DNA from: Nonlabens xylanidelens
GTDB taxonomy: Bacteria; Bacteroidota; Bacteroidia; Flavobacteriales; Flavobacteriaceae
Assembly (NCBI RefSeq): GCF_002934445.1
Contig: NZ_PTJE01000001.1
Span: forward strand, 372,001 to 436,000
Length of the DNA: 64,000 bases
Direction of reading: 5' to 3'
Shown here: one piece after another, positions 953 through 62,623 of the stretch
Numbering within the stretch: the stretch's first letter is position 1
Layout: every line of letters begins with the position of its first letter
Position numbers and translations under genes: made by a program
Notes under the pieces: model-generated
The model's database searches: none
What the model was told of the DNA's origin: nothing
Seen by the model: only the letters and a program-made list of their open reading frames with translations

Positions 953-968
953 CGCTTTCGCGAAAGCG
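953..968. repeat. Dispersed palindrome GCTTTCGCGAAAGC, copy 1
   Basis: Perfect 16-bp palindrome (the 14-mer plus flanking C/G) just after the ccoG stop and before the small Cys-rich gene. It is one of 16 exact copies in the window. Confidence 0.95.
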
Positions 969-971
969 GTA

Positions 972-2393
972 TTAATTATAACTACGTGGTCCTAAAAAGG
1001 CTGTAGTAGTAGTTTCTATTACTTGATCACCACTCATAATTTCTATTTCTAGTCGCTCCTTATCAGTCTTTATAGCACTAGCATTAATTTCTATAAAAAG
1101 AGTTCCTTGCGTTAGTCCTGCCTCTGGCACAGTTACACTCGTGTTAGAAACCAGCTTAATTGTTCCTTTATGAGATTTTAAACGGAAGGTGATACTATCA
1201 ATAGGTTCTACCGTTTTATTTACCAGTTTATAGGTGTAGACATTACTAATAATATTATCTGCCTTATGTTCATATAACTGACCTGGTAATCTTAAAATAC
1301 TTGCCTCTACATCATTGCGCAGAAATAGCATTCCTATTAAAACGGCAGTAAGAATTCCTAAAACAACTATATACCCTTTAAGCCTAGGAGTCAGTTTAAA
1401 TTTCTCACCCTTTTCAATGTTGTCTTCACTAGTGTAACGTATAAGACCCTTAGGTAGATCTACAGCTTCCATCATGTGGTCACACGCATCTATACAGGCT
1501 GTACAATTTACACATTCTAGTTGTGTACCATTACGTATATCTATTCCTGTAGGACAGACATGTACACATGCAGAACAGTCTATACAGTCACCTTTTCCTG
1601 ATGCCGGACGATCTTCTTTCTTTTTAAACTTTGCTCTACCTTCTTCTTTCTCACCACGTTTATGATCATAGGCAACTATTATAGATTTATTATCAAGAAG
1701 AGCACCCTGTAAACGTCCATAAGGACATACTATAATACATACTTGCTCTCTAAACCAGGCAAAAATGAAGTAGAATACTCCTGTAAAAATCATTAAAGAA
1801 ATGAGCGTACTTCCATGTTGCGACGGCCCGTCTGTAATGTATCTTATCAACTCATCACTACCGATTAAGTAAGCTAAGAATATGTTTGCAATTAAGAACG
1901 AGATAATAAAAAAGATGCTCCATTTGAGAACTCTTTTTCTGATTTTTTCAGCATTCCATGGCATTTTTGCAAGACGTATTTGCTTACCTCTATCTCCATC
2001 TATCCAGTACTCGATACGTCTGAAAACCATTTCCATAAAAATGGTTTGTGGACATATCCAGCCACAAAATAAACGCCCAAAGGCTACTGTAAAAAAGATA
2101 ACAAAGACTACCCCTATAATCATCATGATTACAAATAAGTAAAAGTCCTGAGGCCAAAACGGAAAACCGAATATATTAAAACGACGTTCTAAAATATTGA
2201 ACATCATGAACTGGTTGCCATTGATTTTTATGAATGGCGCAGAGAACAAAATAAGTAATAAAGCATAACTCACATACTTGCGATACTCATACCATTTACC
2301 TGAGGGCTTTTTAGGGAATACCCATGCACGCTTACCTTCTTCATTAAGCGTGCCTATGGTATCTCTAAAATTTTCTTGACCTTGATCTGCCAT
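972..2393 (-). CDS. ccoG: Cytochrome c oxidase accessory protein CcoG (FixG/RdxA)
   Basis: 473 aa. It has about five membrane segments, a FCGWICPQTIFMEMVFRRIE motif near residue 110, and two adjacent ferredoxin-like clusters CIDCSACVHVCP and CVNCTACIDACD (about residues 270-305), followed by a last helix (about 342-360) and a C-terminal periplasmic Ig-like domain. CcoG is a Cu(II)-reducing Fe-S membrane protein needed for cbb3 copper loading. It lies downstream of the cupin-like gene in the oxidase operon. Domain order and length match the family. Confidence 0.95.
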   Translation of the reverse strand: MADQGQENFRDTIGTLNEEGKRAWVFPKKPSGKWYEYRKYVSYALLLILFSAPFIKINGNQFMMFNILERRFNIFGFPFWPQDFYLFVIMMIIGVVFVIFFTVAFGRLFCGWICPQTIFMEMVFRRIEYWIDGDRGKQIRLAKMPWNAEKIRKRVLKWSIFFIISFLIANIFLAYLIGSDELIRYITDGPSQHGSTLISLMIFTGVFYFIFAWFREQVCIIVCPYGRLQGALLDNKSIIVAYDHKRGEKEEGRAKFKKKEDRPASGKGDCIDCSACVHVCPTGIDIRNGTQLECVNCTACIDACDHMMEAVDLPKGLIRYTSEDNIEKGEKFKLTPRLKGYIVVLGILTAVLIGMLFLRNDVEASILRLPGQLYEHKADNIISNVYTYKLVNKTVEPIDSITFRLKSHKGTIKLVSNTSVTVPEAGLTQGTLFIEINASAIKTDKERLEIEIMSGDQVIETTTTAFLGPRSYN

Positions 2394-2409
2394 GATGATT
2401 TATTTATTT

Positions 2410-2733: not shown

Positions 2734-2743
2734 CTTACTGTTT

Positions 2744-3891: not shown

Positions 3892-3894
3892 AAC

Positions 3895-6638: not shown

Positions 6639-9041
6639 TTAAATTGTTGTTTTGTGGTTAAGTTTTCTCCCTAAGAAATAGGTGTAAATAGTAGTAAATA
6701 CAACTATACTTATAGAACTAAGCGGCATTAAAATAGCAGCAACTACAGGAGCTAGATGTCCAGAAATGGCAAACCCTAGGCCTACTAGATTGTAAATAAG
6801 CGAGAATATAAAGGCATACTGTATGACCTTTTTCCCTTTACGAGATAGATCTATAAATGTGGTGATATTCTTAAAACGTGTGGCATCTATAATACCGTCA
6901 CAAGCAGGTGAGAAAACATTTACATTTTCTGAAATGACCAGTCCTACATTACTTTGAGCAAGTGCACCAGCATCATTTAGCCCATCGCCTATCATAAGGA
7001 CTTTCTTACCATGACTCTGTAATTCTTTGATGTAATTAAGTTTATCGCCTGGTTTCTGATTAAACACTAATGCGGTATTCTTAGGCAGTATATTTTCTAA
7101 ATGCTCTTTCTCTCCTTCATTATCTCCAGATAAAACTGCTAGATCACAATCCACAGAAAGTGTGTCAAACACATGCTTCATGCCATCGCGGTATTCATTA
7201 TAGAACACATAACAACCTTTATACACTTCATTTGCACTTATGTGCACCGTGGTTTGATTTAAATCCGCTTTCGCGAAAGCGGAACTACCATCAGACACAA
7301 ATGCATAAGAACCCACTTTTACACGATTGTTATTGAGCACACCAGTAATTCCTTTACCTATCTCTTCACTAAAATCGTCTAGTGAGCTGATGTTGTTTTC
7401 TTGTAACATACCATAAAGTGAACGGCTCAATGGATGGTTAGACGCTCGCAATGTAGAGGTAAGTAAAGACTGCTCATCTACCGTTAATGCGATACCCTCA
7501 TAAGTAATAACACTTTTATGACTGGTAGTAAGCGTACCTGTTTTATCAAAAACCACGGTATCTATAGAAGCCAGCTGTTCTATAATGCTGCTGTTTTTTA
7601 AGTAGAATTTATGCTTACCAAATATTCTAAGTAAATTACCTAGAGTAAAAGGTGCTGCAAGAGCTATGGCACATGGACAGGCTACTATAAGAACCGCGGT
7701 AAATACATTAAGCGCAAGAGAAGGCTGGTACCACAACCAGAACATAGTTGCCAGTACCGCTATACTCAAAATACTGATGGTAAAACGCTTACTTATCTGG
7801 TCTGTAATACTTTGAAAAAGACTCTCGGCGCTTTTATTAAAAATCTCGTTAGACCATAATTGCGTTAAATAACTTTGCTCTACAGATTTTAAAACATCCA
7901 GTTCTATAACGCCAGCCTGTTGTCTACCACCTGCATATAGTTTATCTCCAGAGTTTTTACTAACAGGCTCTGCCTCGCCAGTTACAAAGCTATAATCTAT
8001 AAGTGCGTTACCTTTAATAAGAATACCATCTACTGGTATGAGTTCTCCGTTTCTTATCACGATCCTGTCGCCAGCTACTAGATCATAAACCTGTGCTTGT
8101 TCTTCCTTGCTAGAATCTGCTTTGTTTAATCGTGTTACCGCTATCGGGAAATATGATTTATAATCTCTTTCAAAAGATAAAAATGAATAGGTTTTTTGCT
8201 GAAAAAACTTACCTAATAATAAGAAAAAAACCAGACCAGCCATACTGTCTAAAAAGCCAGTACCCCAATCCATTACTATCTCTACCGTAGAACGTAGAAA
8301 CAACACAAGAATACCTATCGCAATAGGTACATCTATATTAAGCATTCTAGAACGCACACTTTTATAAGCAGACACTAGGTAATCACTACCAGAATAGAAT
8401 ACCACCGGTAACGCAAACACAAACATTAACCATCTAAAAATATATTTATAACGCTCTAACCAAAACTCTGATACCTCAAAGTACTCTGGAAAAGATAAAA
8501 ACATAATATTACCAAAAGCAAAACCTGCAATACCTAACTTATAAATAAGACTGCGATCTATAGTAGAGGTTTTCTTTGTTGCGTCATCTAGAGATATATA
8601 AGGCTCATACCCTATTTTACACAACAGTAAAACCAGTTGATGTAAATTTAATTGAGCAGAATTATAAGTAATACGCACACTTTTCTTAGGGAAATTAACC
8701 TGAGAGGTAGTAACATCTGGATGCAATTTATTTAGGTTTTCTAAAACCCATATACAAGAACTACAGTGTATAGAAGGAACAACAAAAGTGACTACCTGTA
8801 CATCTTGCTCGTCAAATTCTAGTAGCTTTTTTGCAATTACATCGTTCTCTAAGAAATCAAACTTACCTTCAAATCTAGATGGTGTTGTCCCAGGAGATTG
8901 CTCTAACTCGTAATAATACGAGAGATCATTATCATTAAGAATATCAAAAACGGTTTTACACCCATGACAGCAAAAATGCTTATCCTGGTGCTCAATAACT
9001 GTAGTTGTACAGTCATCACCGCAATGGAAACATGATTCCAT
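6639..9041 (-). CDS. ccoI: Copper-transporting P1B-type ATPase CcoI (FixI)
   Basis: 800 aa. An N-terminal zinc-ribbon-like region (CFHCGDDC, FCCHGCKTVF, residues 4-31) typical of FixI is followed by an HMA domain with CSSC (about 93-96), membrane helices, the ion-binding CPCAIAL motif near residue 455, the phosphorylation motif DKTGTLT near 499, and GDGLNDAGAL near 684. CcoI supplies copper for cbb3 assembly. A copy of the dispersed palindrome encodes SAFAKAD near residue 587, in the nucleotide-binding domain region. It is transcribed away from the Fnr-like regulator. Confidence 0.96.
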   Translation of the reverse strand: MESCFHCGDDCTTTVIEHQDKHFCCHGCKTVFDILNDNDLSYYYELEQSPGTTPSRFEGKFDFLENDVIAKKLLEFDEQDVQVVTFVVPSIHCSSCIWVLENLNKLHPDVTTSQVNFPKKSVRITYNSAQLNLHQLVLLLCKIGYEPYISLDDATKKTSTIDRSLIYKLGIAGFAFGNIMFLSFPEYFEVSEFWLERYKYIFRWLMFVFALPVVFYSGSDYLVSAYKSVRSRMLNIDVPIAIGILVLFLRSTVEIVMDWGTGFLDSMAGLVFFLLLGKFFQQKTYSFLSFERDYKSYFPIAVTRLNKADSSKEEQAQVYDLVAGDRIVIRNGELIPVDGILIKGNALIDYSFVTGEAEPVSKNSGDKLYAGGRQQAGVIELDVLKSVEQSYLTQLWSNEIFNKSAESLFQSITDQISKRFTISILSIAVLATMFWLWYQPSLALNVFTAVLIVACPCAIALAAPFTLGNLLRIFGKHKFYLKNSSIIEQLASIDTVVFDKTGTLTTSHKSVITYEGIALTVDEQSLLTSTLRASNHPLSRSLYGMLQENNISSLDDFSEEIGKGITGVLNNNRVKVGSYAFVSDGSSAFAKADLNQTTVHISANEVYKGCYVFYNEYRDGMKHVFDTLSVDCDLAVLSGDNEGEKEHLENILPKNTALVFNQKPGDKLNYIKELQSHGKKVLMIGDGLNDAGALAQSNVGLVISENVNVFSPACDGIIDATRFKNITTFIDLSRKGKKVIQYAFIFSLIYNLVGLGFAISGHLAPVVAAILMPLSSISIVVFTTIYTYFLGRKLNHKTTI
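7265..7282. repeat. Dispersed palindrome, copy 2 (inside ccoI)
   Basis: Perfect 18-bp palindrome CCGCTTTCGCGAAAGCGG within ccoI. Read in the ccoI frame it gives Ser-Ala-Phe-Ala-Lys-Ala-Asp. Confidence 0.95.
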
Positions 9042-9922: not shown

Positions 9923-9938
9923 CGCTTTCGCGAAAGCG
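9923..9938. repeat. Dispersed palindrome, copy 3
   Basis: Exact 16-bp palindrome in the short gap between the convergent Fnr-like gene (stop 9908) and the universal stress gene (stop 9947). Confidence 0.95.
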
Positions 9939-15989: not shown

Positions 15990-16003
15990 GCTTTCGCGAA
16001 AGC
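15990..16003. repeat. Dispersed palindrome, copy 4
   Basis: Exact 14-bp palindrome in the divergent intergenic region, 20 bp beyond the direct repeats. Confidence 0.95.
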
Positions 16004-20452: not shown

Positions 20453-20468
20453 CGCTTTCGCGAAAGCG
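20453..20468. repeat. Dispersed palindrome, copy 5
   Basis: Exact 16-bp palindrome between the murI start and the end of the small FeoB-associated gene. Confidence 0.95.
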
Positions 20469-23053: not shown

Positions 23054-23069
23054 CGCTTTCGCGAAAGCG
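23054..23069. repeat. Dispersed palindrome, copy 6
   Basis: Exact 16-bp palindrome between the outer membrane protein gene (stop at 23084) and feoA. Confidence 0.95.
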
Positions 23070-24880: not shown

Positions 24881-25348
24881 TTATAATTTCTCAAATTCTT
24901 CATCAATAAGGTGATTACTTTTATTAAGAGCCGCATTAACCGCCAGCGCATCACAACGTTCATTAATAGGGTGATCGTTATGACCTTTTACCCATTGCAT
25001 TTTAGGTTGTGTACGGTTGTAAACTTTTAAGAAACGTTTCCATAGGTCTGGATTCTTCACATTTTTCCATTTGCGTTTTATCCAGCCTGCCATCCAGTTT
25101 TTATTAATAGCATCACTTACATAACGACTGTCTGTAAAAACAGTGATAGTTACTTTATGATCTGGCTTTATCTTTTCTAGTGCTTCTATAACCGCCAGTA
25201 ATTCCATGCGATTATTAGTGGTCTTGCGATATCCTTGAGAAAATTCTTTTTTAAAGTTCTTTCCTACGGCTATCATCACTATTCCATAACCTCCTGGTCC
25301 TGGATTACCACGAGAAGATCCATCTGTATATATATGTACCTGATCCAT
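24881..25348 (-). CDS. rnhA: Ribonuclease HI
   Basis: 155 aa. Catalytic acidic residues in IYTDGSSRGNPGPGGYG (Asp9), NRMELLAVIEAL (Glu), FTDSRYVSDAI (Asp) and the His/Asp region KGHNDHPINERCDALA. Degrades RNA in RNA-DNA hybrids. Its start overlaps the purN stop by one base, so the two are co-transcribed. Confidence 0.96.
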   Translation of the reverse strand: MDQVHIYTDGSSRGNPGPGGYGIVMIAVGKNFKKEFSQGYRKTTNNRMELLAVIEALEKIKPDHKVTITVFTDSRYVSDAINKNWMAGWIKRKWKNVKNPDLWKRFLKVYNRTQPKMQWVKGHNDHPINERCDALAVNAALNKSNHLIDEEFEKL

Positions 25349-25911
25349 TATTTAAGTAATTCTTCTATAGTCTTAGCAAAGTGTTCTTGTTCTAACTTAT
25401 GAATTTTTGCTGCAAGATCATCGGCAGTATCGTTTTGAGAAATACGACAAGTTGCTTGCTTTATTATGGCGCCTTCGTCATAATTTTCATTCACATAATG
25501 GATGGTTATCCCACTTTCTTGCTCTTTATTTTCAATAATTGCACGGTGTACATTCATGCCATACATGCCCTTACCGCCGTAATTAGGTAATAAAGCAGGG
25601 TGAATGTTAATAATTTTATTTGGAAATAATTTTACGAGACTTTCTGGGATTTTCCACAAAAAGCCTGCTAACACTAGTAAATCAGGCATTTCTGCCTTTA
25701 AAAGAGTTTCTACTGTTCCCGCTTTCGCGAAAGCAGATCTATTAAAACTCATCGCAGGAACACCAAATTTACTCGCTCTTTCTAAGACAAATGCTTGAGG
25801 TTTATTAGACAAAACTAAAGAAACCTGAACAGAATCCACCTCTTTAAAATGATCCATAATAGACTGAGCATTAGTACCATTACCACTAGCAAGGATTATT
25901 ATTTTTTTCAT
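25348..25911 (-). CDS. purN: Phosphoribosylglycinamide formyltransferase
   Basis: 187 aa. Contains ILASGNGTNAQSIMDHF (phosphate loop), VLAGFLWKIP, the NIHPALLPNYGGKGMYG loop, GITIHYVNENYDEGAII and the C-terminal helix. Transfers a formyl group from 10-formyl-THF in purine synthesis. A palindrome copy encodes RSAFAKAGTVE at about residues 58-66. Many PurN proteins have a similar helix here (xAxxRA), so the element appears tolerated. Confidence 0.96.
   Translation of the reverse strand: MKKIIILASGNGTNAQSIMDHFKEVDSVQVSLVLSNKPQAFVLERASKFGVPAMSFNRSAFAKAGTVETLLKAEMPDLLVLAGFLWKIPESLVKLFPNKIINIHPALLPNYGGKGMYGMNVHRAIIENKEQESGITIHYVNENYDEGAIIKQATCRISQNDTADDLAAKIHKLEQEHFAKTIEELLK
25721..25734. repeat. 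Dispersed palindrome, copy 7 (inside purN)
   Basis: Exact 14-bp palindrome in purN, read as Ala-Phe-Ala-Lys-Ala. Confidence 0.95.
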
Positions 25912-28347: not shown

Positions 28348-28363
28348 CGCTTTCGCGAAAGCG
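28348..28363. repeat. Dispersed palindrome, copy 8
   Basis: Exact 16-bp palindrome 35 bp downstream of rnc. Confidence 0.95.
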
Positions 28364-33760: not shown

Positions 33761-36124
33761 TTACTCAAACATCACATAGATCTTAGTATCATTACCATCT
33801 TCATCTACTGCGGTAATTAATCGCTTGCCCTTTTTTCCTTCTATAGCTATTTCATGAAAGTTTTTAGTAGCTCCTAAAAACTCATTATCCATGTACCAGA
33901 ATACCTCAACATCATTCTTTTTATGAGCAATTTCAAAAATGGCACTATTCAGCTCGCCATCTACGTTTTTAGTTAGTGTGATTGTAGTATTATGCTTAGG
34001 CATTATGAAACGCATAACATCTTCACTAGCAGGAATACAGTCCTCTCGGTAATCTGGCAATGTTCTATAGCTAGGGTTAGACCTAGCATAATAATAAGAC
34101 ATAACCGGCGGCAATGAGAACCAAGGTTGCGTTACAATTTGTGATGCAGGTTCACAATCTGCATTTACTTGATAGGTTCTCGTTGCGTCTAGATGTACTG
34201 TTTTGTGATATGGACATGAGTCAAATTTTTCTCCTACAGCCGGAATGTACTGATTGATCGACTCACATAACGGCGTTGCTAGATAACCAGATTGCTCACA
34301 AGTTTGCACCTCTATCATGTCATCATAAGGTGGTGCAAACCATTGTTGTGTGGGCAATCTGTTAAACAGATCAAACAGTACTGGTGCAGCACTGTCTATT
34401 CCGGTCATTTGGGCACGTCCTTCTCCGTCTGCATTACCTGTCCAGACACCTATCACATATTTGGGCGTTACACCTATCGCCCAGGCATCACGATTACCAA
34501 AACTCGTTCCTGTTTTCCATGCGATCTCTCTATCTGGATTAAAAAAGTGCCAGATCTCTTCACCTTGCGGTCTATTTACCTTTTTCATGGCTTCAAAAGT
34601 GTGGTAAATGCTTCCTGCACCATAGATAGATGGCTCTAAGGACCAGTTTATTTGCTCTGATGTTGATTTTTGTTCCGCTTTCGCGAAAGCGGAATTACCA
34701 TCTAAATAACTCAATCGATTCATAATCTCAGGATCGTACTGGCTGCTATTTTCTGTATAGAGTTCTAGAGTTTTGGCCATACCCAAATAGGCACGACTCA
34801 TGTCCCAAAGACTGCTCTCGCCACCACCTATAATAAGACTTAACCCATAAGTACCAGCGCAGCGATTTAAGTGAGATAATTTTAATTGCTGCAGTTTATT
34901 ATAAAATCTAGGCACGGTATGTTCTCGTAACATAAGTACAGCAGGCACATTTAAAGAACGAGATAGTGCACGAGAGGCTGGTATTGCACCAGTATATCTC
35001 TTATCATAATTTTCTGTAGAAAACCCATCGATAATAGTAGGTGTGTCTTTTACCAGACTGTGTGGCAACAACTCGCCGTCATCGAGCATAGCAGCATATA
35101 AAAAAGGTTTTAACACACTACCGGTAGATCGAGGCGCGGTTATAATATCTACATCTTTACTGTGTTCTCGAGTGGTAGGCGCATTACCTACGTAGGCCGC
35201 TACGGTTTGTGTTTCTACATCTAGAACCAGCATAGCAAGGTTATTCACGCCATTTTGCTTTAAAATATTATGATGATTCTTTACAATGCGATTTACCGTT
35301 TCCTGCATCTCATAATCTATGCTGGTACGCAATTTTTGAGTTCCATATTCTTTATTAGCTCGTTGCAACAAATGTGGTGCAAGTTGTGGTACTCTAAAAT
35401 CATGAATAGGTACATTTTCTGAAATAGCGAGTTCATAATCCGTTTCAGAAATGATATTTTCTTCTTTTAATTTAAGCAATACCTGATCACGTTTTTCTTT
35501 GAGCAAGCTCTCTCTTTTACCAGGGTAGACTAATCCTGGCGCGTTGGGTAAAACTGCCAGTGTAGCACTTTCTGCCCAATTGAGTTCGTGTGGTTTTCTC
35601 CCAAAATAACGCCACGCTGCCATATCCAGACCGATTACATTACCACCATAAGGCGCATGAGATGCATAGAGTTCTATAATCTCTTCTTTAGAATGGCGCA
35701 ATTCTAATCGCGTTGCCCAGATAAGCTCGATAAACTTCTCGTAATATTTGCGTTCTTGTTTACGCGATAATCGTATTACTTGTTGGGTTATGGTACTACC
35801 ACCTCGGACTACTTTACCTGCCGATATGTTATCGACCATCGCTTTTGCTATAGAAACTGGATTAAATCCTGGATGGTCATAAAAGTGCGCATCTTCATAT
35901 TGTAAAAGACTTTGTTTATACCGATACGGGACGCTATCTACCGCAGGAAATCGCCACTGCTCATCTCTAGCGATGTGTGCGTCTAGCAACCTGCCGTCTT
36001 TACTTTCTATTACCGTAGAGTAAGGAACATCAAATAATTTATCTGGTAAACACAATGCATACCAAACCAGTAATACCGTCAGTATACTGAGTTTGATTTT
36101 ATGTTTATAGAGGTATTTTTTCAA
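33761..36124 (-). CDS. pbpC: Penicillin-binding protein 1C
   Basis: 787 aa. N-terminal membrane anchor (IKLSILTVLLVWYALCL), GT51 glycosyltransferase (EDAHFYDHPGFNPVSIAKA; GGSTITQQVIRLSRK), transpeptidase with STGSVLKPF (SxxK), SxN-like SRSLNVPAV and KTGTSFGNRDAW, then the biPBP C-terminal domain (about residues 700-787). Builds peptidoglycan. A palindrome copy encodes GNSAFAKAEQKS near residues 477-484, in a variable loop of the transpeptidase. Confidence 0.95.
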   Translation of the reverse strand: MKKYLYKHKIKLSILTVLLVWYALCLPDKLFDVPYSTVIESKDGRLLDAHIARDEQWRFPAVDSVPYRYKQSLLQYEDAHFYDHPGFNPVSIAKAMVDNISAGKVVRGGSTITQQVIRLSRKQERKYYEKFIELIWATRLELRHSKEEIIELYASHAPYGGNVIGLDMAAWRYFGRKPHELNWAESATLAVLPNAPGLVYPGKRESLLKEKRDQVLLKLKEENIISETDYELAISENVPIHDFRVPQLAPHLLQRANKEYGTQKLRTSIDYEMQETVNRIVKNHHNILKQNGVNNLAMLVLDVETQTVAAYVGNAPTTREHSKDVDIITAPRSTGSVLKPFLYAAMLDDGELLPHSLVKDTPTIIDGFSTENYDKRYTGAIPASRALSRSLNVPAVLMLREHTVPRFYNKLQQLKLSHLNRCAGTYGLSLIIGGGESSLWDMSRAYLGMAKTLELYTENSSQYDPEIMNRLSYLDGNSAFAKAEQKSTSEQINWSLEPSIYGAGSIYHTFEAMKKVNRPQGEEIWHFFNPDREIAWKTGTSFGNRDAWAIGVTPKYVIGVWTGNADGEGRAQMTGIDSAAPVLFDLFNRLPTQQWFAPPYDDMIEVQTCEQSGYLATPLCESINQYIPAVGEKFDSCPYHKTVHLDATRTYQVNADCEPASQIVTQPWFSLPPVMSYYYARSNPSYRTLPDYREDCIPASEDVMRFIMPKHNTTITLTKNVDGELNSAIFEIAHKKNDVEVFWYMDNEFLGATKNFHEIAIEGKKGKRLITAVDEDGNDTKIYVMFE
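34673..34694. repeat. Dispersed palindrome, copy 10 (inside pbpC), longest copy
   Basis: Perfect 22-bp palindrome: the 18-mer CCGCTTTCGCGAAAGCGG with TT on the left and AA on the right. Read as Ser-Ala-Phe-Ala-Lys-Ala-Glu in pbpC. Confidence 0.95.
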
Positions 36125-37512: not shown

Positions 37513-39913
37513 GAGTTACATCTTCAACTGGTGGTAACTCTTCTGACTTCACATTTTTGGAAAGTTTAATAGTTCTTTTTCTCAACACCGCATCATTTAA
37601 AACAAACGGCATAGACATATGATCTAGCGGTCGCTGGCTTACATTAAATTGTTCTTGTTCTAATAAATCAAAAGACGCAGCATAAACAATAATTTCTGGC
37701 TCAGTACTAGCATCAAAAGTGAGCTCCATTTCTAGTGCTGCATTATCGGTTACATAATAACTTAAGAATCTATTTCCCCATCGATTGCTGAATGGTCGTT
37801 GATCATCACCACTTTTTCTAATCTCTAAACCATTCACGGTGGCTTTTTCAAAAGAATATTTATCGTCTGCAAAGGCCTCATATCTGTGTACAACACTTTC
37901 ACTCGTTACTTTAAACTTAACCGTACGTAAATTATTTACGGTAGAGTCTGCCGTGATTTCTAGTTCTATTTTTGGCAAGTTTTTATAATCCGTTTTTGCA
38001 GCATAGGAGAATCCTGTCCCATATTTAGAATCTATGGAATTTGCATTTAATTCTTTTGCGCGTTGCGGTTCTGTACCCAGTTTTTCTTTAGTCCAGTCAG
38101 AAAGTACTTTATCGTATGTTGCCCATTGTGCTGTATTATCGTCTTGATTGTGAACATAAACTAAGCTGGTAGGTTTGGGCTGTGTTTGTGAGAATTCCGC
38201 TTTCGCGAAAGCGAAACATAAACAAACTACGGTAGCTATCAATGAGCCAAAAGCAAGCAAACCTTTCTTGCGATAATGTCCTAAAATAGGAATCAATAAA
38301 CCAAATAAAAGCGCACTTAAAACAGCTGCAACGAAAAGAATACTCATTCCTAGAGCTACTGGAAATGCTTTGATAAACGGTGCGAAGACAAAAATAGCTG
38401 GAACGGCTAAGATTAACAACAAGATATAGCTAGGTCCTTTTTGGTGAATATTGAGCCATAACATGACTAATCCTGCGAGTAATGGTACTAGAAAGAAACC
38501 TGCACCACCTAAATAGACATTAGGGATAAGACCGCCATCGCCTACAGGAAATGCAATAGCTAGCGAGATAATCCATAGCAATACCAGTGGCGCGACACTT
38601 AAACTAGCGATGCGATCGCGATGGTAAAATTTATGATACAAGAAAAATGAAACAGTAATCGCTGCAAATGCTGCTGTGGCAATCATCCAATAACCGTTAT
38701 ATGGAAAAACGGTATTCATGTCTACATAAATCTCGTTTGTTTTAACTGCAGCCCAGCCATAATTACTTAATAAATAACCAATTACTAAACTACCTAAGAA
38801 GGGTACAAAACCACCAAAAAGATGTTTTAAAGTAATGCGTCTTTTACGTATTCCATGTACTATTAAAAGTAATAATAAAATACCACTACCTATTATTAAA
38901 GCAGCTAGCCAGCTGAATGGAAACGTAACCATTTTAAATAATGGCAACGGAAAGTAAACTAGATCTTCTCCTTTATCCACCATAACACGGTCTGTCATGT
39001 CTAGATTACTGAAATGAGATAGTAAAGGCATTAAATAAGAACCTTGATGCGCGAGTGTATTGCGGTCTAGTCTTTCATAAGTATCTAGCTCTGTATGGTA
39101 ATCAAAATGATCTCCTATAAAAGCAAAGTTTAAACCATTAATATCTCTGTCTTCTCTAAAAATGGTAAGATCGGTATCGTTAGGTATCATTTGATAGATG
39201 CTGTATGCAAGCGAGTTAGCTACTGGATAATCGGTACCTGCAGCCATAAATTCTTCTATAATCTTGCGGTTACCACCATTAGTTTCTACCAGCATATAAC
39301 TAGGTCCACCACTACCACGTGCTTCAAAGTTGAGTACAAAACCTACATCTTTTGCCCATGGATGTTGATTTACAAATAGACTTGCTCCATTAAGTCCTAG
39401 TTCTTCACCATCTGTGATACAAATAATAATGTCATTTTTAGGTTGCTTATTTTGTGCCAGAAAAGCTCGTACACCTTCTAGAATAGTGGCTACTCCACTA
39501 CCGGCATCACTCGCACCTTTACTGGAATGTGGATCACTATCATAATGAGTTAGTAAAACCAATGCTTTGTTATCTGGTTGAGAACCTTTTATACGCGCAA
39601 TGATATTTTCTGGTTGCGACATGTTACCATTCCAACTGATATCGTACCCTTTTTGAGTAGTAACATTAAGTCCTAGTTTTGTAAACTCATCTTTTATATA
39701 ATCTCTTACTTCATTGTGTCCATTGCTCCCTACATAATGTGGTTTTAAAGAAATCGCTTTTACATGTTCTAGTGCTCTAGCCGTAGACCATTCAGTCGCT
39801 GGTAAATTTTCTTCTACCTGCGCAGATGGTGTCTGACTGTGAAAAGCATACCAAATCATTAAAATAATGACTACAAATGATGCGGCAGAGGTAAGGTGAG
39901 ACTTGGCTCTCAT
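37505..39913 (-). CDS. M28 family membrane peptidase
   Basis: 802 aa. One N-terminal helix, then an M28 zinc aminopeptidase domain (about residues 40-310: LTHYDSDPHSSKGASDAGSGVA, TDGEELGLNGASLFV, NFEARGSGGPS, FDYHTELDTYERL), eight or so membrane helices (about 335-575) and a C-terminal periplasmic domain. Endoplasmic-reticulum metallopeptidase-like architecture, common in Bacteroidota. A palindrome copy encodes CFAFAKAEFSQ near residue 567, at the end of the last helix. Confidence 0.9.
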   Translation of the reverse strand: MRAKSHLTSAASFVVIILMIWYAFHSQTPSAQVEENLPATEWSTARALEHVKAISLKPHYVGSNGHNEVRDYIKDEFTKLGLNVTTQKGYDISWNGNMSQPENIIARIKGSQPDNKALVLLTHYDSDPHSSKGASDAGSGVATILEGVRAFLAQNKQPKNDIIICITDGEELGLNGASLFVNQHPWAKDVGFVLNFEARGSGGPSYMLVETNGGNRKIIEEFMAAGTDYPVANSLAYSIYQMIPNDTDLTIFREDRDINGLNFAFIGDHFDYHTELDTYERLDRNTLAHQGSYLMPLLSHFSNLDMTDRVMVDKGEDLVYFPLPLFKMVTFPFSWLAALIIGSGILLLLLIVHGIRKRRITLKHLFGGFVPFLGSLVIGYLLSNYGWAAVKTNEIYVDMNTVFPYNGYWMIATAAFAAITVSFFLYHKFYHRDRIASLSVAPLVLLWIISLAIAFPVGDGGLIPNVYLGGAGFFLVPLLAGLVMLWLNIHQKGPSYILLLILAVPAIFVFAPFIKAFPVALGMSILFVAAVLSALLFGLLIPILGHYRKKGLLAFGSLIATVVCLCFAFAKAEFSQTQPKPTSLVYVHNQDDNTAQWATYDKVLSDWTKEKLGTEPQRAKELNANSIDSKYGTGFSYAAKTDYKNLPKIELEITADSTVNNLRTVKFKVTSESVVHRYEAFADDKYSFEKATVNGLEIRKSGDDQRPFSNRWGNRFLSYYVTDNAALEMELTFDASTEPEIIVYAASFDLLEQEQFNVSQRPLDHMSMPFVLNDAVLRKRTIKLSKNVKSEELPPVEDVTHG
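38198..38213. repeat. Dispersed palindrome, copy 11 (inside the M28 gene)
   Basis: Exact 16-bp palindrome read as Ala-Phe-Ala-Lys-Ala-Glu. Confidence 0.95.
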
Positions 39914-43820: not shown

Positions 43821-43836
43821 CGCTTTCGCGAAAGCG
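43821..43836. repeat. Dispersed palindrome, copy 12
   Basis: Exact 16-bp palindrome between the convergent aat and tag genes. Confidence 0.95.
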
Positions 43837-45229: not shown

Positions 45230-48109
45230 ATGAAAAACCTACTCCTACTACTAGCCTTTATTATTTCTATTACAGCAATAGCTCAAAAAAAGGTCCTTAC
45301 TCATGCTGATTATGACCTGTGGAAACACGCTTCTAAAACTGAAATCTCGCCTGACGGTAACCTAGTTGCTATAAGTGTAGTTACTGCAACAGGTGCTGGC
45401 GATGGTTATCTAGAAATACACAACATCGCAAAAAATACGAAGCATACTTTTTTTAACGGTATAGATCCACAAATAAGTGCCGATGAGAAATATATTTATT
45501 TCCTTCAAAAACCAGAATACCAAAAACTGAGAAAAGAAAAGAAAAAAGAGGTTGATAAAAATGAGCAGTCAAAAAACACTTTTATGGTTTATGAGGTTGC
45601 TACAGGAACTATAGTAGACTCTATTCAAAGGATAAAAAGTTTTGAGGCAAGTGATAAACGTAATGACTTTTTAATCTTAGAGAAATTTAAAGATCTTAAA
45701 CCAGAAAAGAAAAAGGATACAGCAGCTGTAAAAGAAGAAAAAACACCTTTAAAAGAAACTAAAAGGCAGAAAAAACGCCGCTTAAAAAAGGAACAAGAAG
45801 AGCTATCAAAAAAGCTTAAGGAACTCAAGAAAGAAGAGCCTGAAGAGAAAAAAGCAGACTTTACTAAAGAAGATTATCTAATCGTATACCAGCCATTTTC
45901 TAAAGCAAAAGATAGTATCGATAGTTTTAAAGAATATGAAATGCCTAGAGAAGGAACTGGTTTTATCTATTCTAGAGAACAAGGCAAAAAGAAAAAAGAC
46001 CATGGAGTTTATTACTATGATCTCTCTACTAGAACATCTACGCCACTTATAGAAAATGCATGGAGATATAAAGATCTCGCTATAGATAAATATGGAAAGC
46101 AACTGGCTTATAAAGTTGCACTAGATAGCGCCTCTACAGACTCACTAAAATTTGAATTATATTATCATAAAGACTTTAAATCGTATACCAGACAGTTAGG
46201 TTATGGTGACGATAACATTAAAAAAGGCTGGAAATTAACTGAAAAGAGAAAAGCCATATTCTCAGAAAGTGGAAAACGTCTTTTATTTTATGTTCAACCT
46301 AAAATAGCATATACCATTGACACCACATTGATGGACGACGAGATAGCACAGGTAGATGTATGGAACTATAAAGACCGCATGACACAACCAGAGCAAAAAA
46401 CACGTTTTTCTAGTTTAGAAAATAAATCTGCAACGGTGGTATGGGACACAGAAAACGGTACAGTAAAATTTCTTAATGATTATGAAATGGGTGATACAGA
46501 CTGGGATAACGACCTAGATGGCACTTATATTATTTATGCAAATAACGACAAATATGATGTAGCTAGATCGTGGGAATATCCATGGAGATCTGACTACCTC
46601 GTAGAGAATTTAAAAACACGTAGCAAAAAGTTTATCATCAATAAATCTGGTAGTTACCCTATTAGAAATCCAGAAAATACGCACGTGATTTATTTCAATT
46701 TTGACACCCAAGACTGGCACATGATGAATCTAGAAACGCAAATAGGTAAAAACCTAACTAAGTTTCTAAAAGTAAGCTTTGCAGACGAAGATGACGACCA
46801 TCCAGCACTAGCAAATGCTCATGGCTTTGGAGGTTTTGATAAGGACGGTTTTGCACTGGTATATGATAAATACGACGTCTGGAGACTCGATGTAAATGGT
46901 GTTTTGCCACCAGAAAACTTAACTAAATCAGGTCGTCAAAATAAAATTACTTACCGAACAGAAAACCTAGACAGAGAGCATCGCGAGCTGGCTACCTATT
47001 TTAATAACAAATTATTACTCACATCATTTGATCATCGCACAAAGGCAAATTCTATAATGACACTAGGTGCAAATGGTATCGAGCCTCTTTACGAGGTAAG
47101 TGATCGTAATGTTACCGCTTTCGCGAAAGCGGAAAACTCAAACACCTTATTAGTAAGATCTGGCAATTTTACAGATTATCCAGATGTAGAATACGTAAAC
47201 ACTCAAGTTAAAAAAACACTCACAGATATAAATCCGCAACAGGATGGTTTTAAATGGGGAACTGTAGAATTATTTAAGTGGAATGCATATGATGGCGTGC
47301 CATTAGAAGGTTTGATCTATAAGCCAGAAGATTTTGACCCAAAGAAGAAATATCCTATGATCGTTTATTTCTACGAGAAATATTCTGAAAGATTACACGA
47401 TTATAAATCTCCATTACCTAGTGCAAGCACCGTTAATTTTTCTTATCTAACGAGTAATGATTACATCGTTTTTGTGCCTGACATAGTTTACAAAGATGGA
47501 CACCCAGGACAAAGTGCTTATAACTGTATAGTTTCTGGAACTGAAGCTGTGGAGAGATTAGGCTATGTAGATTCTAACAAAATGGCCTTACAAGGACAAA
47601 GTTGGGGTGGTTATCAAACCGCATATCTAGTTACTAGAACTAATAAATATGCTGCAGCTATGGCTGGCGCACCTGTTTCAAATATGACTAGTGCTTATGG
47701 AGGTATACGATGGGGAAGCGGTTTAAGTAGAGCATTTCAATATGAAAAAACACAAACTAGAATAGGAAAAAACCTGTGGGATGGATTAGACCTCTATATT
47801 GAAAACTCTCCATTATTTCATATCCCTAAAATAGAAACACCCTTATTAATGATGCATAATGATGCAGACGGTGCCGTGCCGTATTATCAAGGTATAGAAA
47901 TGTTTATGGGAATGCGCAGGTTAGGAAAACCGTCATGGTTACTGGTTTATAATAACGAGGCTCACAATCTACGTAAGATGAAAAACAAGAGAGATCTCTC
48001 GGTAAGAATGATGCAGTTCTTTGATCATTATCTTAAAGGCGCGGTACAACCTACATGGATGCAAGAAGGCCTTTCTAGAGATAAAAAAGGTAAGCAGACT
48101 GGGTATTAA
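45230..48109 (+). CDS. Exported S9 family prolyl oligopeptidase-like peptidase
   Basis: 959 aa. Signal peptide MKNLLLLLAFIISITAIAQ, a beta-propeller region (about residues 40-660) interrupted by a highly charged Lys/Glu segment (about 165-215), and an alpha/beta hydrolase domain with GQSWGGYQTAYL (Ser791), NDADGAVPYYQG (Asp) and NEAHNLRK (His). Cleaves peptides in the periplasm or at the surface. A palindrome copy encodes VTAFAKAENSN near residues 629-634, in a propeller loop. Confidence 0.93.
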   Translation: MKNLLLLLAFIISITAIAQKKVLTHADYDLWKHASKTEISPDGNLVAISVVTATGAGDGYLEIHNIAKNTKHTFFNGIDPQISADEKYIYFLQKPEYQKLRKEKKKEVDKNEQSKNTFMVYEVATGTIVDSIQRIKSFEASDKRNDFLILEKFKDLKPEKKKDTAAVKEEKTPLKETKRQKKRRLKKEQEELSKKLKELKKEEPEEKKADFTKEDYLIVYQPFSKAKDSIDSFKEYEMPREGTGFIYSREQGKKKKDHGVYYYDLSTRTSTPLIENAWRYKDLAIDKYGKQLAYKVALDSASTDSLKFELYYHKDFKSYTRQLGYGDDNIKKGWKLTEKRKAIFSESGKRLLFYVQPKIAYTIDTTLMDDEIAQVDVWNYKDRMTQPEQKTRFSSLENKSATVVWDTENGTVKFLNDYEMGDTDWDNDLDGTYIIYANNDKYDVARSWEYPWRSDYLVENLKTRSKKFIINKSGSYPIRNPENTHVIYFNFDTQDWHMMNLETQIGKNLTKFLKVSFADEDDDHPALANAHGFGGFDKDGFALVYDKYDVWRLDVNGVLPPENLTKSGRQNKITYRTENLDREHRELATYFNNKLLLTSFDHRTKANSIMTLGANGIEPLYEVSDRNVTAFAKAENSNTLLVRSGNFTDYPDVEYVNTQVKKTLTDINPQQDGFKWGTVELFKWNAYDGVPLEGLIYKPEDFDPKKKYPMIVYFYEKYSERLHDYKSPLPSASTVNFSYLTSNDYIVFVPDIVYKDGHPGQSAYNCIVSGTEAVERLGYVDSNKMALQGQSWGGYQTAYLVTRTNKYAAAMAGAPVSNMTSAYGGIRWGSGLSRAFQYEKTQTRIGKNLWDGLDLYIENSPLFHIPKIETPLLMMHNDADGAVPYYQGIEMFMGMRRLGKPSWLLVYNNEAHNLRKMKNKRDLSVRMMQFFDHYLKGAVQPTWMQEGLSRDKKGKQTGY
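47115..47132. repeat. Dispersed palindrome, copy 13 (inside the S9 peptidase gene)
   Basis: Perfect 18-bp palindrome CCGCTTTCGCGAAAGCGG read as Thr-Ala-Phe-Ala-Lys-Ala-Glu. Confidence 0.95.
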
Positions 48110-54413: not shown

Positions 54414-54429
54414 CGCTTTCGCGAAAGCG
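54414..54429. repeat. Dispersed palindrome, copy 14
   Basis: Exact 16-bp palindrome directly after the terminator T-run. Confidence 0.95.
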
Positions 54430-54548: not shown

Positions 54549-56456
54549 ATGAAAAATTACATTCTTATTGTTGTGGCTGTTTTTAGTTTCGCTTTCGCCA
54601 AAGCGCAATCTAAATCCAACTACGTAAAAGAAAATTACACAAAAACGGTAGAATATATCTCTATGAGAGATGGTGTTAAATTATATACCGTAATCTATGC
54701 ACCTAAGGATACCTCAAAGGAATATCCTATCATGATGCAACGTACACCATACAGTGTAAGGCCTTATGGAGAAGGTGAGTATAAAAGATCACTAGGACCC
54801 AACAAATTCATGATGCAAGAAGGTTACATCTTTGTATATCAAGATGTGCGCGGTAGATGGATGAGTGAAGGAGATTATGATAACATGAGACCTCACATAC
54901 CTGGTAACGACGTAAATAATAAAGAAGATATAGACGAGAGTAGTGATACTTATGATACTATAGAATGGTTAGTAAATAATCTCCCTAACAACAATAAAAA
55001 AGTAGGTCAATGGGGAATTTCTTATCCAGGACACTACACCGCAGCTGCATTACCAGAAGCGCACCCATCACTAACAGCATCTTCACCACAAGCACCCATT
55101 GCAGATTTTTTCTTTGATGACTTTCATCACATGGGAGCGACATTACAAAGTTATTTAATGGCATACCCTTTATTCGGCTATCAGTCAGAGCCTACCTCAG
55201 AAAGCTGGTACAATGATAAATGGGATAAACTGCGTGCAGCAGGAAACATGAAGGATGGTTATGATTTCAACATGAAAATAGGACCGCTTAAAAATGTAAC
55301 TAAAAATATTTTTCCAGATAACTTCTTCTGGAAGCAAGTTGCAGAGCACCCTAATTATGACGAATTCTGGCAAAAACGTGCTATAATCAATCATTTTGAT
55401 GACGTAAACCATGCCGTAATGACCGTAGGTGGCTGGTTTGATGCAGAAGATCTTTATGGACCACTTAATATCTATAAAAGTGTAGAAAGCAAAAACCCTA
55501 ACAATAAGAATAACATGATTGTTATGGGACCATGGAGTCATGGAAACTGGGCAAGAGAGCGTGGTAAGCAAATGGTAAATCACATTCACTTCGGTGATAG
55601 CATTTCTACTTTTTACCAGAAAAACATTGAAACACCTTTCTTTGAGCATCATTTAAAAGGAAAGAAAAACCCACAATTACCAGAGGCATACATGTTTGAT
55701 ACTGGCGCAAAAAAATGGGAACAATTTACACACTGGCCACCACAACAAGAACAAGTTTCTTTTGGATTTGGAAATAATGGTGAGTTATTGATCAACAAGG
55801 CTGGCGATAAAAAACAGGAATTCACTTATACGAGTGATCCTATGAAACCAGTACCTTTTAGAAGCGAGATAACACCAGTAACATTTACACCTAGAGCTTA
55901 CATGACAGACGACCAGCGTCATGCATCTAGAAGACAAGACGTACTTACTTTTCAGACAGAAGTGTTAGAAAATGACATGCTTCTTGCAGGAGAGATAGAG
56001 GCAAATCTAGAGGTGATCTTAAATAACATTACAGACGCAGACTTTATAGTAAAAATAATAGACGTATATCCAGATGACGAGGCTAACGGTGCGTATACTC
56101 CTAAAGATATATCTCTAGCAGGTTACCAGCAACTGGTGCGTGCAGAAACCTTCAGAGGTAGATTTAGAAATGACTTTTCTAAACCAGAACCTTTTAAAGA
56201 AGGAAAGAAAACTAAAGTGAATTTCCCTTTACAAGACATCTTACATACCTTTAAAAAAGGACATAGAGTAATGATACAAATTCACAGCACCTGGTTTCCT
56301 TACATAGATCGCAACCCACAGAAGTATGTGGACAACATCTTTGAAGCAACAGAAAGTGATTTTACAGTAGGTCAAGTAACCATACTAGGAAGCAGTAAAG
56401 TAACCGTAGGAGAAAATGACGGTATTGAAAAAATGTTACCTAAAATGAAGAAGTAA
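54549..56456 (+). CDS. Exported CocE/NonD (S15) family hydrolase
   Basis: 635 aa. Signal peptide MKNYILIVVAVFSFAFAKAQ. The alpha/beta hydrolase has QWGISYPGHYTAAALP (nucleophile Ser158), EDLYGPLNIYKS and GPWSHGNWAR (catalytic His), then the C-terminal jelly-roll typical of X-Pro dipeptidyl peptidases and cocaine esterase. Hydrolyses peptides or acyl esters/amides outside the inner membrane. The AFAKA of its signal peptide is encoded by a one-mismatch copy of the palindrome (54591-54604). Followed by a terminator. Confidence 0.93.
   Translation: MKNYILIVVAVFSFAFAKAQSKSNYVKENYTKTVEYISMRDGVKLYTVIYAPKDTSKEYPIMMQRTPYSVRPYGEGEYKRSLGPNKFMMQEGYIFVYQDVRGRWMSEGDYDNMRPHIPGNDVNNKEDIDESSDTYDTIEWLVNNLPNNNKKVGQWGISYPGHYTAAALPEAHPSLTASSPQAPIADFFFDDFHHMGATLQSYLMAYPLFGYQSEPTSESWYNDKWDKLRAAGNMKDGYDFNMKIGPLKNVTKNIFPDNFFWKQVAEHPNYDEFWQKRAIINHFDDVNHAVMTVGGWFDAEDLYGPLNIYKSVESKNPNNKNNMIVMGPWSHGNWARERGKQMVNHIHFGDSISTFYQKNIETPFFEHHLKGKKNPQLPEAYMFDTGAKKWEQFTHWPPQQEQVSFGFGNNGELLINKAGDKKQEFTYTSDPMKPVPFRSEITPVTFTPRAYMTDDQRHASRRQDVLTFQTEVLENDMLLAGEIEANLEVILNNITDADFIVKIIDVYPDDEANGAYTPKDISLAGYQQLVRAETFRGRFRNDFSKPEPFKEGKKTKVNFPLQDILHTFKKGHRVMIQIHSTWFPYIDRNPQKYVDNIFEATESDFTVGQVTILGSSKVTVGENDGIEKMLPKMKK
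54591..54604. repeat. Near-copy of the dispersed palindrome in a signal peptide
   Basis: GCTTTCGCCAAAGC, one base from the consensus, encodes Ala-Phe-Ala-Lys-Ala in the signal peptide. Confidence 0.7.
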
Positions 56457-57396: not shown

Positions 57397-57412
57397 CGCT
57401 TTCGCGAAAGCG
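57397..57412. repeat. Dispersed palindrome, copy 15
   Basis: Exact 16-bp palindrome between the tiny membrane gene and the MATE gene end. Confidence 0.95.
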
Positions 57413-59774: not shown

Positions 59775-59907
59775 GTTGATTTATTGAGAAGGGTGAGAAT
59801 TTAGGAAGCTAATAGGTATTAAAACAATAGGAATGATCAGATTTTAATTAAAAGACTCCTCAAACATTACATAGAAGAGCCTTTTAAAGAACTAATCAAA
59901 CTAAAAT

Positions 59908-60522: not shown

Positions 60523-60541
60523 TTTGGGTAATTGTTTATAG

Positions 60542-62623
60542 TTAAAATTGATAGTTAAGTTTTATGTATCCTTGAATCCCTGGCTGTGTAGGGATGTTAT
60601 TATCTGTATAATCCAGTAGGTTATTTGCTCCTACTTGAAGATTAAAGTCTTGGTAAAAAGTTTTATTTGCAGCAATGTTAGCAGTTACATAACCGCCTAT
60701 AAAACTTGTATCATAGCTATCTATGAGTCCGTTTCCATTGGTATCAAATTGGGCATATTTACTACGGTATAGCAATCGCAGGTTCACGTTTGCCTTATAT
60801 TTTTTTAAATCATAAAAGATTTTAAAATTACCGTTGTGTCTCGAGCGATTAACAAGACCAAAATATTCTGATCGATCAATCGCAACGGTCTGATTAGTCT
60901 GTGCATCGCGCACAAATACATTACCATCTTCAACAGCTTTTTCTTGAGTTTTATCAAATGCGTAGAGTAATTGATAACCAGCACTTAATTTAATAGCATC
61001 TGATACTTTATAGCTAGTATTTACTTCTAACCCAGTAGTATATATCTCATCAAAATTCACGTAACTAAAAACATTCTGTCCATTATTCTTGCGCGCTATA
61101 ATTCTAGTATCAATTAAGTTTTTAAAATCATTACGGAAAAAATTAAGTTCTGAATTCCATTTTCCTTTCTTAAAGGTCATGCCTAGATTATAACCTATAC
61201 TACTTTCTGCCTCTAGTGGATCATCTAACTCATTAAGCGGCACAACCACATCTAGAATCTGACCTTGCGCTTGCAAGTCATTTAATTTATCTACCGCAAC
61301 ATTATATCCTAAAACCGTATATCCTACCGCCGAGTTTGTAAAATCAAAATACAACTGTCTAAAATCTGGAGCTTTAAACCCATAACCTACAGATGCCTTT
61401 ATGGCTATAGATTCACTAAGTTGGTATCTCGCAGCCAGCTTAGGACTGAATTGATTACTGTACTCTGAATGGTTATCAAATCTAGCACCTGCTATAACAT
61501 TTAATTTTTCTGTAGGATTCACATCATACTGTCCATAAACGTATTGCGAGTTAAAATCTACACGCTCGTCAAAATATGTTCTATCCAGCGATTCTAGTTG
61601 ATATCCTACACCAGCCGTTATAGTACCAGCCGATTCTAACTTATAATTTGCTCTAATCTCAGGACGTATCAAGGTCTGGTTAAAATCACTATCGGTAAAA
61701 GCATCTTCTTCTATAGGATCTTCTAGTCGCTCGTTTGCACGATAATTAGTATAATAAAACTCATAAGAAGTAGAGAGCTTCTCATCCCATTTATGATCTA
61801 ATCGTGCGTGCGCGTTCCATTCCTTTTCATTGCTATCGCCTTTGTATTCTATATCTTCAAAAGTAAATCCAGCATCTTGAGTCTGGTCATAATATCGAGC
61901 CGAGGTAAATAGAGATATACTCTCGTTAAAATCATAATATAAACGAGTGTTAAAAGTGTAATTCTCAAAAGGATTAACGGTTTGCCCGCCAGTTTCTGGA
62001 CTCAAATCATAACCATTGCTAGAAAAACGATTTGCAAAAAAGCCTATTCTCAGTTTATCAAAACGTTTTTTTACATCTAGATTAATGTCTTGTTGTGTAA
62101 AACTGCCCAATCTATAAGAAACGTTTCCATTTAGTTTTTCAGTTTTAGGCTTTTCAGTAATAATATTGATGACTCCACCCAGCGCTTCACTACCATAAAG
62201 ACTACTCGCCGGACCTTTAACCACTTCTATTTGTTTGATATTACCTACTGTAATTCTACTAAGGTCAAAATTACCTGCACTGCGTCCTACTAGTGGTACA
62301 CCGTCTACTAGAATAAGAATATAGTCTGACGATATTCCTTGTATTTGTACACCTTCAAAACCACTCTCATCAGACACCGTTATGATACCTGTTTGCTCGT
62401 TAAGAATTTCATCTAGTCGTATAGTTCCTGACTGTAAAATGTTCTTTTTAGAAATAAGAGTCACTGGTAATGGTAGTGAAGATAATTGTCTTTCTGTACG
62501 TGTTGCTGTAAGGACTATTTCTTCTAGCTTTTCTGTTGCTGTAGAGTCGATTACAGTTTGTTGGGCTACCGCTTTCGCGAAAGCGATAAAACTCAATACA
62601 CTTATAAACAAATATTTACACAT
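60542..62623 (-). CDS. TonB-dependent receptor (HmuR-like)
   Basis: 693 aa from the ATG at 62623. Signal peptide MCKYLFISVLSFIAFAKAVAQ, plug domain (VLTATRTERQLSSLPLPVTLISKKNILQSGTIRLDEILNEQTG; VKGPASSLYGSEALGGVINI), 22-stranded barrel and a C-terminal strand ending YIKLNYQF. The AFAKA part of the signal peptide is a palindrome copy. Imports heme or an iron compound with HmuY; the exact ligand is unknown. A longer frame to 62722 would run through the promoter and Fur-like box. Confidence 0.92.
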   Translation of the reverse strand: MCKYLFISVLSFIAFAKAVAQQTVIDSTATEKLEEIVLTATRTERQLSSLPLPVTLISKKNILQSGTIRLDEILNEQTGIITVSDESGFEGVQIQGISSDYILILVDGVPLVGRSAGNFDLSRITVGNIKQIEVVKGPASSLYGSEALGGVINIITEKPKTEKLNGNVSYRLGSFTQQDINLDVKKRFDKLRIGFFANRFSSNGYDLSPETGGQTVNPFENYTFNTRLYYDFNESISLFTSARYYDQTQDAGFTFEDIEYKGDSNEKEWNAHARLDHKWDEKLSTSYEFYYTNYRANERLEDPIEEDAFTDSDFNQTLIRPEIRANYKLESAGTITAGVGYQLESLDRTYFDERVDFNSQYVYGQYDVNPTEKLNVIAGARFDNHSEYSNQFSPKLAARYQLSESIAIKASVGYGFKAPDFRQLYFDFTNSAVGYTVLGYNVAVDKLNDLQAQGQILDVVVPLNELDDPLEAESSIGYNLGMTFKKGKWNSELNFFRNDFKNLIDTRIIARKNNGQNVFSYVNFDEIYTTGLEVNTSYKVSDAIKLSAGYQLLYAFDKTQEKAVEDGNVFVRDAQTNQTVAIDRSEYFGLVNRSRHNGNFKIFYDLKKYKANVNLRLLYRSKYAQFDTNGNGLIDSYDTSFIGGYVTANIAANKTFYQDFNLQVGANNLLDYTDNNIPTQPGIQGYIKLNYQF
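62569..62585. repeat. Dispersed palindrome, copy 16 (signal peptide of the TonB receptor)
   Basis: Exact palindrome read as Ala-Phe-Ala-Lys-Ala in the receptor's signal peptide. Confidence 0.95.

Follow-up and report, generated by a model that had tools for sequence, protein, structure and literature searches.

The described systems closest to the element reported here are the following. The parS, Noc, SlmA and MatP sites: these are palindromes recognized by dimeric chromosome-acting proteins, and they number tens at most and lie in one region. The Chi sites: these are short and read single-stranded, so that a full palindrome is unexpected among them; the Escherichia coli Chi is GCTGGTGG. The uptake signal sequences (USS) of Pasteurellaceae and the DNA uptake sequences (DUS) of Neisseriaceae: these occur in hundreds of copies, within genes and between them, and arise by substitution. 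The highly iterated palindrome HIP1 of cyanobacteria (GCGATCGC): this has an unsettled function, is 8 bp long and is tied to methyltransferases (PMC4390886). Here we describe a perfect palindrome of 14 bp, GCTTTCGCGAAAGC, in a window of 64 kb (the whole stretch of DNA analysed, G000:C1:372001-436000) from a Nonlabens genome, G000 in our numbering. We tentatively read its copies as genome-wide targets of a dimeric (or tetrameric) protein that binds double-stranded DNA and is probably architectural.

A palindromic 14-mer across Nonlabens genomes

The window holds 16 exact copies, a one-mismatch copy at 54591 and a two-mismatch copy at 41332; the 18 matches with at most two mismatches compare with a mean of 0.16 in dinucleotide shuffles. 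The exact and one-mismatch copies had been listed in a first-pass annotation of this DNA, at positions that lie within 4 bp of ours, and its division of the exact copies into nine intergenic and seven genic is reproduced by gene calls from our own simple dicodon caller. The perfect palindrome reaches 14-22 bp depending on the copy, and the annotation's observation that it has no T-run holds for both strands within 20-bp flanks. No other palindrome of 10-14 bp with at least three copies in the window approaches the excess of the 14-mer.

The excess holds for the entire genome of the window (3,276,842 bp; its FabF shares 99% identity with the Nonlabens ulvanivorans protein), which has 664 copies against none of the reversed control word, far beyond expectation. 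Copies number 288-857 in each of the 23 genomes of the genus, where the control is absent. In the family, 80 of 397 genomes have any copy, and the site-rich ones belong to three genera only, Nonlabens and those of G211 (408) and G227 (857), the rest having 0-19. A sample of the phylum (22 of 395 genomes with any copy) is rich only in G000, and a sample of the order searched with a 16-mer (18 of 393) only in G000 (579), G017 (495) and G227 (630). At the fabF locus a copy is present in nine of nine Nonlabens loci and in none of 71 loci outside the genus. G211 (loci L063-L066) has a lower density than Nonlabens and G227, and weaker flanking arms; it may be a lineage that is losing the system. No comparable palindrome was found in related genera. 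Winogradskyella and Confluentibacter-group loci (among L080-L149) do have a palindrome GAAGCTAGCTTC, with 8 copies in one set of 379 kb and 10 in another of 298 kb, where about 0.01-0.02 are expected; these copies may represent one orthologous place per locus.

The searched literature, which mostly lacks subscription papers, contains no paper in which the 14-mer is printed, and the 12-mer is absent from the papers with a shorter word, among the matches listed. Publications on Nonlabens and palindromes include none on the 14-mer, judging from titles and the start of abstracts, and a survey of repetitive extragenic palindromes (REP) does not mention Nonlabens in its main text (PMC12306157).

A tree of MutS from 30 genomes separates Nonlabens from G211 and G227, which group together. 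A topology uniting the site-rich genomes as one clade is not rejected by MutS alone (p 0.19), is weakly rejected by ParB alone (p 0.041; 16 genomes) and is rejected by the two proteins joined (approximately unbiased test, p 0.008; 16 genomes); Nonlabens is on a long branch in these trees. On this placement the trait was gained twice, moved between the lineages, or was lost in between. A comparison for shared sites between G000 (476 kb) and G211 or G227, each sampled over 80 kb, yielded no pair that passed the filter.

Symmetry, spacing and upkeep of the sites

The 14-mer is the core of a longer symmetric element. Across 105 sites in 464 kb of G000, position-specific preferences extend to about 25 bp on either side of the dyad: C at -8 (frequency 0.91), T at -11 (0.77), -17 (0.76) and -20 (0.60), and G at -22/-23 (about 0.4), with C depleted from -25 to -11 (0.01-0.13 against a background of 0.18). 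The bias has almost vanished more than 40 bp from the dyad. Either arm is G/T-rich and C-poor on the strand that enters the core 5' to 3', and the arms are symmetric both in genic sites (104 arms) and in intergenic ones (106 arms). The same pattern is seen at the sites of other Nonlabens, of G227 and of the foreign islands described below, and is weak in G211. Pairing of left and right arm bases from -8 to -13 shows no excess, which tells against selection for a hairpin or cruciform beyond the core and favours two half-sites of a protein. Half-sites are scarcely enriched by themselves: outside the sites, 476 kb contain GCTTTCG 8 times against 4.4 expected and TTCGCGAA not at all, which indicates that the full palindrome is needed. 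The element thus has two-fold symmetry, position-specific preferences and halves that are independent of each other, as is expected of the site of a dimeric protein.

The sites are evenly spaced in the samples from G000 and from the single-contig genome G004. Over its first 100 sites G000 has a mean gap of 4455 bp, a coefficient of variation (CV) of 0.438 and a minimum gap of 1268 bp, and none of 20,000 random sets was as even; counts per 20 kb are correspondingly under-dispersed (index 0.22, P 4e-5; 23 stretches). Twenty stretches of G004 hold 84 sites, two to seven each (index 0.44, P 0.018), with one gap of 273 bp. No stretch round that chromosome lacks sites, and any tilt towards the parS side is mild (rho -0.42 with distance from parS, p 0.063). 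The smallest spacing in 476 kb of G000, one-mismatch copies included, is that of the pair at 54415 and 54591 of the window, 176 bp apart. As to genes, 52 of 104 placed sites fall within predicted ones. The intergenic sites exceed expectation about 4.4-fold in each class (tandem 30 against 6.5, divergent 14 against 3.3, convergent 8 against 1.8), and this equal enrichment means that neither promoters nor gene ends are favoured.

Relatives keep the sites in orthologous places. Counts close to expectation and absence from such places in relatives were the two outcomes that the first-pass annotation had named as refuting its observation, and neither was seen. Comparison with seven Nonlabens loci, at 73.5-80.6% identity of nucleotides, gives 21 alignable instances, of which 16 are exact, four have one or two mismatches and one is absent, whereas random 14-mers are identical in 2.6-9% of cases; these counts cover the alignable cells only, 21 of 56 site-by-relative combinations, with 35 dropped. 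The origin of a site can be followed at two genic places. In the gene at 25348-25911 (-), which on reading alone we take to be purN, the AFAKAG of most Nonlabens corresponds in site-free relatives to AFTKTDD or AFSKSED, for instance, and no gap occurs at the site among the matches listed (16 of 75). The gene at 32198-32863 gives the same ungapped picture against site-free relatives. The ungapped alignments at these two places show that the site was built by substitution rather than by insertion. The sites in the pbpC-like gene and in the gene at 37505-39913 lie in gapped loops and are uninformative on origin; at the pbpC-like gene one relative has a site at the same loop in a different frame.

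Possible readers and roles

The symmetric element of about 50 bp, the scarcely enriched half-sites, the even spacing and the presence over the whole chromosome are best accounted for by one of the roles that the first-pass annotation had listed, a site for a nucleoid or chromosome-acting protein; of its other suggestions, an uptake sequence fits less well and a HIP1-like or methyltransferase-linked site fits poorly. Each copy would be the core of an element bound as double-stranded DNA by a sequence-specific protein of the hosts rich in sites, and the copies would work collectively rather than as switches of single genes, providing about 660 anchors, one per 4-5 kb, over the entire chromosome. 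The symmetry, the even spacing and the lack of gene preference point to chromosome architecture or maintenance as the likeliest job, through anchoring, looping or the loading of a DNA-organising complex. If a protein does read the sites, the whole chromosome is touched at intervals of 4-5 kb on a visible, even grid, and the system would lend itself to studying how chromosome anchors are spaced in bacteria or how a bacterium tells its own DNA from other DNA.

Several observations weigh against such a protein. None that binds the element was found. Two isolated Nonlabens phages with no annotated integrase have no site in 35.7 kb each, an outcome with a chance of 0.0003 at host density (computed for one phage); the two are close kin by their gene lists and count as one case. 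In the Nonlabens genome G001 the whole list of sites is uneven (94 sites, gaps of 223 bp to 29.7 kb, CV 0.92; 5002 of 20,000 random sets as low), although its first part, 69 sites between 14 and 270 kb, is even (CV 0.674; 3 of 20,000). Thus site-free stretches of up to 29.7 kb are tolerated there, and close pairs of 223-273 bp occur in both G001 and G004. In G004 there is no restriction to the terminus or origin like that of the MatP, Noc and SlmA systems, and even spacing has been claimed for uptake sequences too.

Candidate readers and known site types were considered alongside. ParB has one match in each of the seven site-rich genomes (five Nonlabens, G211 and G227; 30 searched) and two to four in seven of the 23 others. 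The canonical parS 14-mer occurs exactly twice, about 1.89 kb apart, in each of four Nonlabens genomes (G000, G001, G004, G011); the exact parS word is absent from six genomes of other genera, namely G211, G227 and four site-poor ones. The single ParB match and the canonical parS kept twice make ParB an unlikely reader in Nonlabens. Nor is the 14-mer itself likely to be a parS, a site of few copies near the origin; and its spread over all 20 stretches of G004 tells against a regional site of the matS, Noc or SlmA type. It shares palindromy with these sites and differs from their regional tens in being present by the hundred all round the chromosome.

The chief rival is a DNA uptake signal, which shares most of the features cited for an architectural protein and which we consider possible, though distinctly less than probable. 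Here naturally competent Nonlabens would take up DNA that bears the element, and biased uptake with recombination would spread and keep the sites as in Pasteurellaceae and Neisseriaceae. Hundreds of copies within genes and between them, the origin by substitution at two genic sites and the accumulation of sites in resident mobile DNA would all be in line with this, and the flanking context of the USS is conserved, as it is here. Within the same family, transformation of Riemerella columbina favours the bacterium's own DNA (PMC7965970). The known uptake sequences, however, are non-palindromic, and their mismatched forms are over-represented in a graded manner (PMC1939737), whereas the element here is perfectly palindromic and its excess in G000 ends abruptly after two mismatches. 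There, copies with zero to four mismatches number 107, 14, 5, 12 and 89 against 0, 0, 1.6, 12.0 and 91.2 in simulation (means of five runs, here and below), a cliff rather than a slope, with loads 3 and 4 at chance. The cut-off is softer in smaller samples, which speaks for uptake: three-mismatch copies number 8 in G227 (2.2 simulated), 9 in the seven Nonlabens loci (4.0), 5 in G211 (2.2), 3 in G001 (2.0) and 2 in the element of G097 described below (2.4), so that the five sets joined have 27 at load 3 against 12.8, and 113 at load 4 against 125.6. As for machinery, the type IV pilus/type II secretion system (T2SS) F protein (PF00482), the only uptake machine searched for, is found in 10 of 51 family genomes, three of five Nonlabens and three of seven site-rich genomes; its lack in G004, G011, G211 and G227 tells against uptake and removes this system as the partner of the sites. 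The G001 pilin scored below the cut-off against ComP_DUS (E 4.2e-4, 21.6 against 27.3 bits) and is not used as evidence, and a literature search combining Nonlabens with natural transformation found nothing.

The other alternatives are further from the data. A Chi-like mark for recombination or end protection, palindromic and so working in both directions, with the G/T-rich 5' arms as preferred RecA-loading DNA, is improbable. The sites are about as dense as E. coli Chi, of which a 150-kb sample has 24 with a mean gap of 4.6 kb, and a further likeness is the strand entering the core, rich in G/T and poor in C from either side; the E. coli sites, though, are non-palindromic and, in that 150-kb sample, unevenly spaced (24 sites, 21 gaps, CV 1.57), and a full palindrome is not expected of Chi. 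Chi is recognised in one direction, by RecBCD or AddAB; RecC was found in none of 32 genomes, rich or poor in sites, and therefore does not set the hosts apart (AddAB lay outside the search). A palindrome of the HIP1 kind, kept by an orphan methyltransferase with repair, is more doubtful still and the case for it weak. In its favour, the element here is palindromic, highly iterated and strongly over-represented throughout the genus; it has, however, a core of 14-16 bp within about 50 bp, and such a symmetric context far exceeds the length of a methyltransferase target. Outside the sites the inner hexamer TCGCGA shows no excess, with 38 in 476 kb against about 36 modelled (145.3/4, the strand count of a palindromic word being corrected by hand). 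Deviations from HIP1 are biased to its first or last base (PMC4390886), while single mismatches here, counted from the outer end, fall 4, 1, 1, 0, 2, 5 and 1 times (a small sample, n=14), that is, four of 14 at the ends and five at the sixth base. Least likely of all is a mobile or extragenic palindrome like REP or a miniature inverted-repeat transposable element, or a bidirectional transcription terminator. Palindromy and the enrichment between genes would suit these, yet half of the placed sites are genic, convergent intervals are not preferred over the other classes, and the T-run of a terminator is missing. Neither of the two informative genic sites, of four aligned to site-free relatives, shows an insertion, and the flanks are not copied between sites (maximum identity 17 of 22 columns, mean 7.8). 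We disfavour the terminator, REP and parS readings.

To return to a protein that reads the sites as chromosomal anchors, it is conceivable, if rather unlikely, that they represent a new kind of chromosome-wide marking, in which a reader present in at least two separate lineages of Flavobacteriaceae imposes an even grid of palindromic anchors of about 50 bp on long-resident DNA, be it chromosome, prophage or integrative element, and changes proteins by selection so as to seat them. If this is true, the pattern of two lineages would reflect a reader able to move between genera and to lay its grid anew.

Sites in mobile DNA and in individual genes

Sites are also present in mobile DNA. In genera with few copies they are often clustered, and a 933-bp pair recurs in G122, G099, G236 and G108. 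All 16 exact sites of G097 lie within one stretch of 78 kb (L298-L302, in G097:C3:25001-120000), which encodes a serine recombinase, a Zot/A32-like ATPase, a peptidase M15 and an N6-methylase-like gene. This mobile element of about 80 kb may be virus-like and integrative, of a type not yet described, and may travel between members of the Flavobacteriaceae. By eye, it has copper-efflux-like cargo and adjoins an ftsZ-like gene, and genes whose products have N-termini similar to those of its own occur in the Nonlabens genome G001 (L305, L307).

The element of G097 has 16 exact, 9 one-mismatch and 2 two-mismatch sites, compared with 107 exact and 19 mismatched in G000 (Fisher p 0.0057). Nine other foreign sets have 42 exact and 15 mismatched (12 and 2 in G072 alone), and the hosts vary too: 84 and 9 in G004, 28 and 10 in seven named Nonlabens loci, 19 and 4 in G227, and 12 and 6 in G211. 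As this element was singled out after inspection and the islands share ancestry, decay of sites in foreign hosts is only suggested by these counts.

Among viral contigs, sites occur in L260 (portal, head and tape-measure genes), L203 (integrase) and L194 (Mu-like transposition genes). The scan returned at least 120 stretches, and 76 of these, with a G+C content of at least 46%, were put aside as probable chance matches. No named phage matched among those sought as resembling part of L260, and a plasmid search with FabF brought nothing of use. Taken with the site-free phages, these contigs suggest that sites gather in DNA resident in the host. If a protein reads them, they would also mark DNA that once resided in Nonlabens and trace mobile elements that have left it.

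Table 1. Copies of the palindrome in the 64-kb window, with their setting and their state in Nonlabens relatives
Feature	Position	Remark
Site, intergenic	954..967	Centre 11 bp beyond 3' end of ccoG (972-2393, -)
Site in heavy-metal P-type ATPase-like gene (6639-9041, -)	7267..7280	
Site, convergent gene interval	9924..9937	
Site, divergent gene interval	15990..16003	
Site, intergenic	20454..20467	Exact in 2/2 alignable Nonlabens loci (7 compared)
Site, intergenic	23055..23068	Sole alignable relative has a two-mismatch form
Site in conserved gene 25348-25911 (-), predicted purN	25721..25734	Exact in 6/7 relatives, one mismatch in the seventh; codes AFAKA
Site, intergenic, downstream of the gene that follows fabF	28349..28362	Two alignable relatives: one mismatch, absent
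Site in gene 32198-32863 (+)	32296..32309	Exact in 5/6 alignable relatives, one mismatch in the sixth; codes LSRK
Extended element of about 50 bp (example)	34659..34708	Dyad 34683/34684; 5' arm of either strand poor in C and rich in G/T, -25 to -8
Site in pbpC-like gene (33761-36124, -)	34677..34690	Exact in 3/3 alignable relatives; L075 in different frame
Site in gene 37505-39913 (-)	38199..38212	
Site, convergent gene interval	43822..43835	
Site in gene 45230-48109 (+)	47117..47130	
Site, intergenic	54415..54428	
One-mismatch copy GCTTTCGCCAAAGC	54591..54604	Exact site at 54415 lies 176 bp away
Site, intergenic	57398..57411	
Site close to 5' end of TonB-receptor-like gene (60542-62722, -)	62571..62584	

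In the site-free gaps of G001, inspection by eye shows a relaxase-like gene, giant proteins that are repeated and a set of genes resembling Wadjet; Pfam adds a T2SS-like operon. The Wadjet (Jet)-like genes lie inside one such gap at L305 4244-9355 (G001:C4). The operon, at L308 176-6698 (G001:C4:332-339 kb), resembles those of T2SS or type IV pili, with the F protein, a secretin, an E ATPase and a pilin. The giant proteins form two pairs, of 1813 and 1793 aa and of 1507 and 1487 aa, at L306 3681-13877 and L308 8083-18159, about 23 kb apart; they are alike in their first 45 residues and in length, and the second pair has an Rhs repeat.

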